A stretch of DNA of 64,000 bases, taken from Chloroflexota bacterium (GTDB lineage Bacteria > Chloroflexota > Anaerolineae > UBA7937 > B3-Chlor). The notes under the pieces were generated by a model, which had not been told where the DNA came from, ran no database searches, and saw nothing but the letters and a program-made list of their open reading frames with translations. Positions 4,163 through 9,296 of the stretch are shown piece after piece. How positions within the stretch are numbered: position 1 is the stretch's first letter; every line of letters starts with the position of its first letter. Position numbers and translations under genes: made by a program. The DNA lies in contig JAUVXJ010000001.1 in assembly GCA_030603665.1 (NCBI GenBank), positions 124,001 through 188,000 on the forward strand, read 5' to 3'.

Positions 4163-5407
4163 TCAAACCCAAGCCCTTCCCTGCTGATAGCCACGTCTAC
4201 CCCTGTAATAGTGAGGGATGACCGCTATGGAAGGCAGCGAACTGTCCCGAAAGAGGAGTTCGTCGATGAGAGCGCGGTAGAACCCAATGACCGCGGGCTG
4301 AAGGCCTGTCTGGTAGAAGAACAGCGTGAGATCGCCTTGAGTTCGTGACTGCTGCAACTGTTTCCGTGTCTGTGAGTAGCAGAACTCATCGGTCTCTGAG
4401 AAGGCGCGTGCTTTGGAGACCTCGCGGTTGCGGAACCAGGCCATGTCCACGTCGTGATCCATGCCCAGGTGTCGCATGCTCAGCATCGCGGCCCTTAGTG
4501 GCTGCACATGGGCGAGGCTGGCCGAATCCACAGGTTCCCGCCGCGGAAGGCAGCGAAGGGGCAATGGTTTTCCTTGCGAACCATCGGTGTATATGACTTG
4601 TATGTACACCGGTTCTTCAACTTTGCCCGATTCGGAGTAGGCGAACTCATTGAGCACCTCAGTAATGACATTGTGTGGCTGATTGCTAAAGTTCACTGCG
4701 CCAGGTCGTCCCTGCCGAGCTAGACGAACAGCGTTCTCCACACGCTCGCGCAGAATCTCCGCGGCGTTGCGGCCTTCGTTGTCAAAGACCCCCTCGTCCA
4801 TCTCTATTGCCTGGGATCCCAGAAGCGCCGCCTCCTCGACAGCGGTCTGGGGCGCAGCGGCCGGCAGAGGCTCTTCGAAATGGTATGGATCCTGCAGTTC
4901 GACGACCCCACAAGCATGTTGCCGGGCGAGGCGGAAGAACGTAGTTCGCCGTTGGATCTCCGCGTGGTCGGCCAAGCCCATATCGGAGGCAAGCGACGAG
5001 AAGGCCGCGACGTGCGCCTCAACCATCGGCGGCGGGAAAAACGTGGCGCCAAGGCGCATCTCCATCGACCTGGCCCTTACCTCGCGAAGCATCAGGTCTA
5101 CCGCATCCAGGTACTCTTGACCCAAGAAGCAGACGGGCAAGCGAAAGGCATCGAGAGCCAGGCGGAATGCACCCGGATCCGATACAGGCGCATGGATAGG
5201 CAGCTTAAGAGCGGCTTCGAGTCGTGCGCAGCAGAGGGTGTAGCGCGCGCGCTCGTTGTCCAGATTGACCCCCTTGCCAAGTCGGCGCTCGATGCCCAAG
5301 GCATCTGCCACGAACGACCGAATGGCAATGTCCTGGTCGCCCCACTGCACATCCTGCTCCCAGACAATCGATGGCAAGGCACACAGGGTGAACCGCGCTG
5401 TGATCAT
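4163..5407 (-). CDS. Unrecognised 414-aa protein in helicase/SUKH operon
   Basis: This is a soluble, mixed-composition protein with no signal peptide or membrane segment. I do not recognise its family. The N-terminal third is helical-looking and Leu/Ala/Arg rich. The middle (about 185-215) is acidic and Glu/Ala rich. The C-terminal third contains a stretch TDGSQGKPLPLRCLPRRE and a conserved-looking end with FFYQTG and a basic Arg/Tyr-rich tail. Its ATG overlaps the stop of the upstream SUKH gene in an ATGA (5404-5407), and the helicase gene starts 20 bp downstream. This makes translational coupling and joint function with these two very likely. A partner or adaptor of the helicase is a guess from context only. 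Confidence 0.8.
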   Translation of the reverse strand: MITARFTLCALPSIVWEQDVQWGDQDIAIRSFVADALGIERRLGKGVNLDNERARYTLCCARLEAALKLPIHAPVSDPGAFRLALDAFRLPVCFLGQEYLDAVDLMLREVRARSMEMRLGATFFPPPMVEAHVAAFSSLASDMGLADHAEIQRRTTFFRLARQHACGVVELQDPYHFEEPLPAAAPQTAVEEAALLGSQAIEMDEGVFDNEGRNAAEILRERVENAVRLARQGRPGAVNFSNQPHNVITEVLNEFAYSESGKVEEPVYIQVIYTDGSQGKPLPLRCLPRREPVDSASLAHVQPLRAAMLSMRHLGMDHDVDMAWFRNREVSKARAFSETDEFCYSQTRKQLQQSRTQGDLTLFFYQTGLQPAVIGFYRALIDELLFRDSSLPSIAVIPHYYRGRRGYQQGRAWV

Positions 5408-7026
5408 TCTCTCATTATCCTGCTGCTCGAAAGCCTCCTAGCGGCATCCGCATCCAGAGACACGGTTGTGTCAGGACAGACCATGATATCGACGTTGAGG
5501 GCGTGAGCCTTGTCTGCGAATTCATCCCGCGAACGTTGTGAGAGGTTATCGAAATCACGCGGTACAAGCACGGAGACCCGGGCCGCCGTGCCCTGGCCTT
5601 GGAGCGAAGCCAAGCACTCTGCGGCCAGGTCGAGATCCTGCTGAAGATGGACAGTCAGATCCTCGGTCTCTCGAGCTCTAAGCAGAGCAATCAACTGGAC
5701 TCCCGCGGGCAGACCGGCGGTATCCTGCGATTGCCCAACGACCCATGGAACAGGCATTTGCTCGGTCGAACAATACACCTTGGCGTAGTACGTTGGATCA
5801 AATGCTACCTCCAAGGGCCTGACATCATCCTCAAGGTCGAGTGCTTCGTCGGCGTCGCCACGCAGACGCTTAGCCAACTTCCGATCAAGCAACCCACCCA
5901 TCACCGAGGCGCGGGCGTGGGCGAGATCGCTCTGATAGAGGTGTCGCTGTTCGGGTTGAGCGTCGCCACCAAGAATGCTATCGCCGCGAGGAGCACCAAG
6001 AACGATAGTCTCCAATTCCGCACGCGTCCATAGGCCGTGATGAACCGCGTAGCATGCCCTTTCTTCCGACAACCTAGCAACTCTGGCTAGCCCCTGGATC
6101 TCATCTCTTAGTGCAGGACTGAAGTCGGTTAGGGCGACATATAGGCTTCTAGCCTCCAGGGGGGTGATACGACCATCGGCCGCGTGTTCCAACACGACTC
6201 CATAGGCATCACACAAATCGCATAACGCACGGGGGACGTGCCCGTCCTCGACGTTCGTGCTGAACCTGATTTCCATCGAGCCGCCGCACTTGTACGCCTC
6301 CGAAAGTAGGAAGGAAGCCATCCACTTGGCGCCGCTGCCAGGCTCGTACTCTGGCACGTCCGACGTGAGGCAGACATCCACTTCCAGGCAGTTATTGTCG
6401 ATGGAGTGCCGTACAACCGCGAGACCTAGCACCACGTCTTGCGAGCAAAAGCGAAATGGGCGCCAGATGTGATTCCTGGGGAGTTTCCCCTGGGATAGGT
6501 AATCTGTTTCGAACTTCGCTACGTGTTGTTCTAGGATGCTGAGGGCGGCCCTTCGGTGCTTGAACTCAGTCAACGTTTCGGAAAGATATGCTGCAAAACC
6601 CTCGCTCAAGAAAACAGGGTTCTGCTCGTCTTCTTGTGGGTCAAACTTCCACAAGACGACAGGTGCTTCACTGCTCTTCGATTCGGCGCTCTGGCATTCG
6701 ATACAAGCAACCGCTCCTGATTCAGCCAGATCTCGAATTGGGATCAGGCTCCTTGGCATCTCTGGAAACACTTCCCACAAACCTCTGAGCGCCCACACTA
6801 TGGATGGTTCAGAGTCTACCGGATAGCTTATCCCATATACGCGCACCTGCCCTATGGTGATTGCCCCGTAGCGACTCAAGAAGGCCCTGTACTCCTCTGG
6901 AAATCTGACGCCCAATACATCTTCGACCTTGTCGATTCCTTCCATCGGTACGCTGCCGACCGAGCTGACCTCATCCCCGAAAGAGTCAATTAGGGCGAAC
7001 AGCCTCTCAACGGATTGCATCGTCAT
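5404..7026 (-). CDS. SUKH (SMI1/KNR4)-domain protein with unknown C-terminal region
   Basis: Residues about 1-160 have the SMI1/KNR4 (SUKH) pattern: an early helix, then a segment with GVRFPEEYRAFLSRYG, then hydrophobic strands around VYGISYP and VVLWKF, and a closing helix FAAYLSETL. SUKH domains are known mainly as immunity proteins of bacterial toxins and as adaptor domains. The remaining ~380 residues are unrecognised. They include a cysteine-containing strand region (about 200-290), an acidic linker, and a C-terminal alpha/beta segment ending in a region like VSVLVPRDF and VDIMVCPDT. An in-frame TTG lies at 7041; I prefer ATG 7026, though no strong Shine-Dalgarno is visible. It overlaps the next gene by 4 bp. 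The length (540 aa) is far more than the usual single-domain SUKH protein. Confidence 0.8.
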   Translation of the reverse strand: MTMQSVERLFALIDSFGDEVSSVGSVPMEGIDKVEDVLGVRFPEEYRAFLSRYGAITIGQVRVYGISYPVDSEPSIVWALRGLWEVFPEMPRSLIPIRDLAESGAVACIECQSAESKSSEAPVVLWKFDPQEDEQNPVFLSEGFAAYLSETLTEFKHRRAALSILEQHVAKFETDYLSQGKLPRNHIWRPFRFCSQDVVLGLAVVRHSIDNNCLEVDVCLTSDVPEYEPGSGAKWMASFLLSEAYKCGGSMEIRFSTNVEDGHVPRALCDLCDAYGVVLEHAADGRITPLEARSLYVALTDFSPALRDEIQGLARVARLSEERACYAVHHGLWTRAELETIVLGAPRGDSILGGDAQPEQRHLYQSDLAHARASVMGGLLDRKLAKRLRGDADEALDLEDDVRPLEVAFDPTYYAKVYCSTEQMPVPWVVGQSQDTAGLPAGVQLIALLRARETEDLTVHLQQDLDLAAECLASLQGQGTAARVSVLVPRDFDNLSQRSRDEFADKAHALNVDIMVCPDTTVSLDADAARRLSSSRIMRE

Positions 7027-7092
7027 GTATATGCTACTCAATCCCTTTTGTGTGGACGTGGTGTCAGGTACTGCTGCAACAGGACATGACCA

Positions 7093-8355: not shown

Positions 8356-8367
8356 GAAGGAGGAGAC

Positions 8368-8964
8368 ATGGAGAGAACCCCCAGCACCGGGAAGACCCTG
8401 GAGGAGCTGACCCAGCGGGCCAGACGCATGGCCCTGCGCTACGCTGAGATCAGCCCCTATCGCCTCAACCCCGACCAGGATGTTTGGGAGGGGATCGTCA
8501 AGGGCATAGGCAGGCAAGCGCATACCTTCGGCTGGCCCTACTGTCCTTGACAAGAGCGGGATGGCGATCCCGTGGAGGATCGCAAATACATCTGCCCCTG
8601 CTACCGTCACAAGGACGACATCGCCGCGACCGGCCACTGCATCTGCCACCTTTTTGTGAGCAGTGACTATCATCGGCCGGAGATCGAGGCCCCTCCTGAG
8701 CCATCTGAGGGCACCGCGTGGCCTCACATCGTTGTATACGGCGCTTCCTGGTGCAAGGACACTCTCCGCAGCAGGAGATACCTCAATGACCACGGTGTTC
8801 CGTACACGCTAGTGGATGTGGACCAGGATCCGGAGGCAGCCCGCCAGGTGAAGGAGTGGAACCAGGGGTACGTATCCACTCCCACCATCGATATCGATGG
8901 GCAGATCGTGAGTGTGCCCTCAGATGAGGAACTGGGGGAGATCCTGGGCATCGAGGGTGGATGA
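8368..8964 (+). CDS. Selenocysteine-containing ferredoxin:thioredoxin reductase catalytic domain fused to glutaredoxin
   Basis: One frame runs from ATG 8368 (AAGGAGGAG just upstream) to the stop at 8964 with a single internal TGA at 8548-8550. Residues 1-100 are an FTR catalytic (beta) domain: C59-P-U61, C76-P-C78, C91-I-C93, then HLFV. The family pattern is CPC...CPC...CHC; in plant-type FTR the second Cys of the first CPC (Cys57 in Synechocystis) is the substrate-attacking residue and the last Cys of CHC its partner, while the other four bind a [4Fe-4S] cluster. The TGA falls exactly on that nucleophile. Residues 118-198 are a glutaredoxin domain with C129-K-D-T132 and a cis-proline motif STPT. 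A hairpin follows the TGA. I read TGA as selenocysteine (198 aa). A sequencing error or nonsense mutation is less likely because the frame stays intact on both sides. Role: reduces disulfides or selenenylsulfides using ferredoxin-type electrons. Confidence 0.85.
8557..8572 (+). promoter_or_regulatory. Candidate bacterial SECIS hairpin of the FTR-glutaredoxin gene
   Basis: A perfect 6-bp stem (CGGGAT at 8557-8562, ATCCCG at 8567-8572) closes a GGCG loop whose first base is G, as in bacterial SECIS apical loops. The loop begins 13 nt after the in-frame TGA (8548-8550), slightly closer than the spacing usually quoted. It would recruit SelB to decode the UGA. Confidence 0.6.
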
Positions 8965-9029: not shown

Positions 9030-9296
9030 TCACTTCAGCCAGACACTTGCAGCCTCAGCAACTTCTGGTCTGGGAAGAAGCGTTATCGCCCTGTCCGCGC
9101 ATGCCGCCCTGCAGACGCCGCACCCGAAACACCTGGTGGGGTCGATATAGACCTTGGATAGTGTGGAGGAGTAGAATTGGGCGCCGAACTGACACTGAGC
9201 CATACAGGACTTGCACCCCGTACAAAGGAGATACGATGGCAGGGGCGCCCCTGTATCGCACGAGCACATTATAGCACAACTTAAACACCCTGTCAA
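9030..9296 (-). pseudogene. Relic of a dicluster [4Fe-4S] ferredoxin-type protein
   Basis: The minus-strand frame ends at 9030 and encodes two complete cluster motifs: CTGCKSCMAQC, and CFGCGVCRAAC within the segment VYIDPTRCFGCG. These are typical of the C-terminal ferredoxin part of larger Fe-S proteins. Upstream of CTGC the frame continues only into sequence overlapping a promoter, with no ATG/GTG/TTG in a ribosome-binding context downstream of that promoter. I therefore read it as an N-terminally truncated remnant. A short functional ferredoxin starting from CTG near 9242 cannot be excluded. Confidence 0.55.
9268..9296 (-). promoter_or_regulatory. Consensus sigma70-type promoter
   Basis: On the minus strand TTGACA (9296-9291) is followed after exactly 17 bases by TATAAT (9273-9268), a perfect match to both consensus boxes. 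It points into the ferredoxin relic. With no good start codon downstream, it may be a leftover or drive an untranslated RNA. Confidence 0.75.

Follow-up and report, generated by a model that had tools for sequence, protein, structure and literature searches.

Does the TGA at positions 8548-8550 end a gene, or does it encode selenocysteine (Sec) within a redox enzyme? Reading the frames of the window (by which we mean the whole 64-kb stretch of DNA analyzed here, from an uncultured Chloroflexota bacterium), we found this TGA to be the single internal stop in the forward-strand frame 8368-8964. The frame opens with an ATG directly preceded by a Shine-Dalgarno-like sequence (GAAGGAGGAGAC, 8356-8367) and closes at 8962-8964 with a stop codon of its own, which is also TGA. 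With UGA read as Sec, the coding sequence (8368-8961) specifies 198 residues, in the order CP-U61, ICPC (C76 and C78), HCIC (C91 and C93), HLFV, and a glutaredoxin (Grx) domain. The original prediction had described a lone TGA with the same protein on both sides of it, and the frame, the motifs, and the Pfam domains all agree with that description. It had also expected a normal gene caller to split or drop the gene: the ORFs listed by program include only the 3′ portion (130 aa, from the GTG at 8572 onward), so a gene caller would truncate it. By the computational tests available, 8368-8964 is a genuine selenoprotein gene.

Residues 18-105 (8419-8682) match the Pfam family PF02943 (FeThRed_B), the FTR/FDR catalytic domain, with an E-value of 3.9e-19 and a score of 69.1 bits against a gathering score of 22. 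In a profile alignment with Synechocystis FTR (1dj7), C59-P-U61 falls on Cys55-Pro-Cys57, and the TGA residue thus aligns to the second Cys of the first CPC. In the Synechocystis enzyme, it is the exposed Cys57 that attacks the disulfide of the substrate, and Cys87, close to the cluster, is paired with it. By correspondence, C93 would be the partner of U61 in the window protein, and C59, C76, C78, and C91 would be the cluster ligands. These six positions are invariant Cys across an alignment of 31 Chloroflexota sequences, with the exception of Sec61 in five; at position 61, all 24 other Chloroflexota FTR proteins in the alignment have Cys. The window protein therefore has the six-Cys pattern of the FTR/FDR family (CPC, CPC, CxC) with one Cys replaced by Sec, and an in-frame UGA where homologs have a redox-active Cys, as in bacterial selenoproteins generally. 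Homologs with either Cys or Sec at this position had been suggested as a check, and both kinds were found (five TGA genes, Cys elsewhere). That Sec occupies the nucleophile position in an FTR-type reductase with a fused glutaredoxin is upheld by the position of the TGA on Cys57, by the Sec machinery, and by the relatives.

An AlphaFold2 model built from the 31 sequences has a pLDDT of 90.4 and shows the FTR and Grx folds; with seven sequences the iron-sulfur loop had been poorly modeled, whereas the 31-sequence model was good. The FTR half of the model matches FTR/FDR structures with Z of 11-12 (about 11.9 at best), and the Grx half matches glutaredoxins, methanoredoxin, and NrdH (Z 10-11 to glutaredoxins). 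The iron-sulfur loop bears on a different reading of the locus, in which the UGA ends translation and a second start at GTG 8572 gives a free Grx-containing fragment. The mechanically called ORF does begin at that GTG. However, such a break would fall within the loop and separate C59 from C76, C78, and C91, which would bind the cluster with it; in one relative (G481) GTC stands in place of the GTG, and the relatives with Cys have one continuous frame. We regard two separate proteins as very improbable.

Orthologs with the same FTR-Grx layout, and with the TGA kept, occur in G007 (75% identity) and G002 (76%). More distant proteins have the layout FTR-Grx-Grx, with TGA in G073 and G481 and TGC in G619 and G601. 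Five genomes from different genera, the source genome included, thus have TGA at this codon. G610 has a Grx-Grx part without the FTR. A search of approximately 400 genomes from the class and 400 from the phylum yielded no further relatives; none was found among viral contigs, and on plasmids we found only free or other Grx proteins. A tree of the FTR domain groups the seven fusion proteins at 91/85; a stand-alone FTR from G213 joins them at 100/99. The best tree has two changes between Sec and Cys, and a single change is needed in 22% of bootstrap trees. Three of the fusion genes, in G481, G619, and G601 (family f38), follow a gene for a HisKA_7TM protein, and for this reason they look like orthologs in place, one with Sec and two with Cys. 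Among these three loci (L108, L109, and L110), the G481 locus has the HisKA_7TM and FTR-Grx-Grx genes abutting, with an apparent stop/start overlap. Separately, G008 has a decayed FTR-Grx copy (locus L028, ~700-1010), which retains 77% identity over residues 1-47 and is followed by an internal deletion reaching the end of the Grx, with TAG stops; this genome is 76% complete, and no tRNA-Sec was found in it.

The relatives also bear on whether the TGA is a nonsense mutation in a pseudogene or a miscalled TGC or TGT. Metagenome-assembled genomes can contain errors, and the G008 copy, with its deletion and stops, is an example of decay within the family. Against this, the same-codon TGA in four relatives from other genera shows that the codon is not a sequencing error, and it counters the outcome that had been named as fatal to the proposal, namely that re-sequencing would give TGC or TGT. 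In addition, all three FTR-Grx ortholog pairs have a dN well under dS both before and after the TGA: Between the window and G007, dN and dS are 0.05 and 0.66 upstream of the TGA, and 0.15 and 0.77 in the part of the FTR domain that follows it. Judged from these substitution rates, both flanks are under purifying selection. Together with the complete Sec machinery of the source genome, the independent relatives refute a pseudogene or an error for practical purposes, and we give this explanation almost no weight.

The original prediction had called for a search for selA, selB, selC, and selD in the same genome, and all four are present. The tRNA-Sec (C31:84323) scores 70.3 bits and has a UCA anticodon; selA scores 560.7 bits; selB scores 346.7 bits and is a single 678-aa frame; and selD (C31:215905-216840, locus L018) scores 357.9 bits. 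The selD gene itself has an in-frame TGA at the active site (AG-U-AAK), so the selenophosphate synthetase is probably also a selenoprotein. All six other genomes that carry genes of the FTR-Grx family have selA. Elsewhere in the order, we found tRNA-Sec in G001, G002, and G005, and did not find it in five genomes that are 64%-80% complete. These five include G007, but that genome is only 80% complete, has selA, and has a congener with tRNA-Sec. The UGA might in principle be read as some other amino acid, through an altered code or nonsense suppression. We found no point in favor of this; selA, selB, and selD are present, the FTR-Grx gene itself terminates in TGA, and relatives invariably have Cys at the aligned position. 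Such a reading is barely credible.

For the bacterial SECIS element, the published model gives a loop of 3-9 nt, a stem of 4-16 bp, an MFE of ≤ -7.5, a G within the first two loop positions, and a loop lying 16-37 nt from the UGA (PMC13188914). The hairpin at 8564-8583 (GCGATCC-CGTGGA-GGATCGC) satisfies every one of these rules: It has a 7-bp stem, a 6-nt loop (8571-8576) located 20 nt from the UGA with G at its second position followed by U, and a folding energy of -10.6 kcal/mol. Its ensemble pairing probability is 0.97-0.99. A hairpin of this kind is found in all five Sec genes and in neither of the two Cys genes, and 2.2% of the TGA sites in the window qualify by the same rule. G007, G002, and G073 have a near-identical copy, and in G481 it is shifted by one (GCGATC-CGGTCCGT-GATCGC). 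Both Asp codons in the stem are GAT in all Sec genes, even in G073, where GAT accounts for only four of 22 Asp codons; in the two Cys genes (G619 and G601) the hairpin is absent and an Asp codon is GAC. No compensatory base changes or covariation are visible in these few and partly related sequences, and synonymous conservation within the element alone is not significant (P = 0.17, Fisher's test). On the strength of folding, relatives, and the published rules, we propose the hairpin at 8564-8583 as the SECIS of the FTR-Grx gene.

The original prediction had pointed to another hairpin, CGGGAT-GGCG-ATCCCG (8557-8572). This hairpin is present and does start 6 nt after the TGA. As a SECIS it lies too close, since its loop is 12 nt after the UGA and hence outside the 16- to 37-nt range; it is not conserved in G007, G002, G073, or G481, and it is disfavored in the ensemble. 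The two hairpins overlap and are mutually exclusive, and the one at 8557-8572 is probably incidental.

The C-terminal domain (residues 121-181; 8728-8910) matches the glutaredoxin family PF00462 with an E-value of 3.2e-12 (46.9 vs. 22.9 bits). It lacks the CxxC of dithiol glutaredoxins: The motif is W-C129-K-D-T132, with a single Cys. The same holds throughout the seven fusion proteins, where all Grx domains keep the first Cys and lack the second (CxxT/S/V/G); the other Grx relatives with a readable motif mostly have CPDC or CSDC, although some do not. The absence of the second active-site Cys suggests that the fused Grx domains are probably monothiol relays, in which the classical dithiol-disulfide hand-over cannot occur. 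The earlier idea of the Grx as a plain recipient of the electrons is not supported, and a relay through a mixed disulfide is more likely. We read the protein as a Sec-containing ferredoxin-dependent disulfide reductase with a C-terminal monothiol Grx, and we put the probability of this reading, as drawn from sequence comparison and excluding any Grx relay, at about 0.87.

Such an enzyme would work as follows. SelB and tRNA-Sec would decode the UGA at 8548-8550, aided by the SECIS hairpin at 8564-8583. By analogy with FTR chemistry, a [4Fe-4S] cluster would be held by C59, C76, C78, and C91, and through it ferredoxin would reduce a selenenylsulfide between Sec61 and Cys93, in two steps of one electron each; the freed Sec61 would then attack a disulfide. 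The relay step is speculative, given that the Grx is monothiol. With the first Cys kept and the second lost, the simplest chemistry would be for the tethered Cys129 to take up a mixed disulfide, with a protein or a low-molecular-weight thiol, for Sec61 to attack this mixed disulfide, and for Cys93 to resolve it. The fusion would then be a ferredoxin-driven deglutathionylase-like reductase with no need of free glutathione reductase or NADPH, a proposal whose chances we judge to be a little short of even. The broader proposal, that this is a self-sufficient selenoenzyme powered by ferredoxin, whose Sec reduces mixed disulfides on its tethered monothiol Grx and which replaces the glutathione/glutathione-reductase/NADPH route in Chloroflexota, is more tentative still. 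If it is true, the Grx-Grx proteins would be the same enzyme with two arms.

The reductase might instead act without any relay, with the Grx only docking or recognizing substrates and Sec61 acting directly on thioredoxin or small disulfides. The loss of the second Cys in all fused Grx domains is consistent with this, as is the prevalence of CPDC or CSDC among the other Grx relatives with a readable motif. However, none of the Grx domains in the seven fusions has lost C129, which points to chemistry rather than docking alone, and we consider docking alone unlikely, though far from negligible.

Contrary to the original prediction, an FTR with Sec is not in itself a new type of selenoprotein. The prediction of Sec-FTR goes back to 2008 and to two GOS metagenome sequences, one of which has Sec at both redox-active positions (Zhang and Gladyshev; PMC2398784), and two reviews list it as CxU (PMC9312934; PMC13188914). 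A curated family, NF041072 (FtrB_double_U), also exists. Like the window protein, its members combine an FTR catalytic domain with a Sec in the redox-active CxU, and its profile is the one nearest to the FTR part (E = 1e-30). However, the score of 106 bits is below the curated cut-off of 160 bits, and the window protein lacks the two-Sec feature, having one internal UGA and Cys at position 93. On these two grounds it is a relative of NF041072 rather than a member. The model has 121 positions and covers the FTR domain only, whereas the window protein adds a fused Grx.

Among known structures, a Grx/ferredoxin disulfide reductase fusion from Desulfotalea psychrophila (7pwe) has the same two domains in one chain and aligns to the FTR part with E = 1.7e-12 and Z of 11.9. 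It differs in having the Grx first, Cys in place of Sec, and a dithiol Grx (CGFC); the literature available to this analysis yielded nothing on this fusion. The ferredoxin-dependent disulfide reductase of Methanosarcina acetivorans (4tpu) has the same catalytic domain (Z 11.7, rmsd 2.1) and, like the window protein, no plant-type variable subunit, but all its positions are Cys, and its C-terminal partner appears to be a rubredoxin rather than a Grx, as the chain is so labeled in the entry. The Synechocystis and chloroplast FTRs (1dj7, 2puk, and 2pu9) share the six catalytic and cluster Cys positions but are heterodimers with a variable subunit and have neither Grx nor Sec. The nearest named family to the Grx domain is Mycoredoxin/GlrX_actino (TIGR02200; 2lqo), although the window domain is below its cut-off (47.6 vs. 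89.5 bits) and lacks the second active-site Cys.

What is new here is the fusion to Grx and to Grx-Grx, the single Sec, the exchange of Sec and Cys between orthologs, and the complete Sec machinery. The available portions of the three sources make no mention of a Grx fusion of Sec-FTR (PMC2398784; PMC9312934; PMC13188914). Sec-containing FTR, known at first from a pair of GOS sequences and from a small curated family, is now placed in genomes that have Sec machinery, and its fusions to Grx and Grx-Grx point to the substrate. The Sec gene of G481 and the Cys genes of G619 and G601, with the same architecture and gene context, form a natural pair for testing what selenium contributes to a disulfide reductase of the iron-sulfur type, with a selenolate that would act next to a [4Fe-4S] cluster. 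Further such genes have probably been missed, because this one is truncated by normal gene callers and scores below the cut-off of the existing model.

In the single-Grx group (the window, G007, and G002), we found no conserved neighborhood. The gene is flanked by Crp/Fnr and histidine kinase genes in G002, by genes for an SDH-type protease and a D-aminopeptidase in G007, and mostly by unclear ORFs in the window. Just downstream in the window, and convergent with the FTR-Grx gene, lies a two-[4Fe-4S] ferredoxin-like ORF (9030-9296, minus strand; Fer4_10, E = 1.5e-8), possibly an electron donor or the remnant of a larger iron-sulfur protein. An indolepyruvate:ferredoxin oxidoreductase alpha-like gene, recognized by eye, adjoins FTR-Grx-Grx in G601 (L110, 2309-4003, minus strand) and also the Grx-Grx gene in G610 (L115). 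Next to a 414-aa protein without a Pfam match (4163-5407), the window encodes a protein of the SUKH (Smi1/Knr4) family at 5404-7041 on the minus strand.
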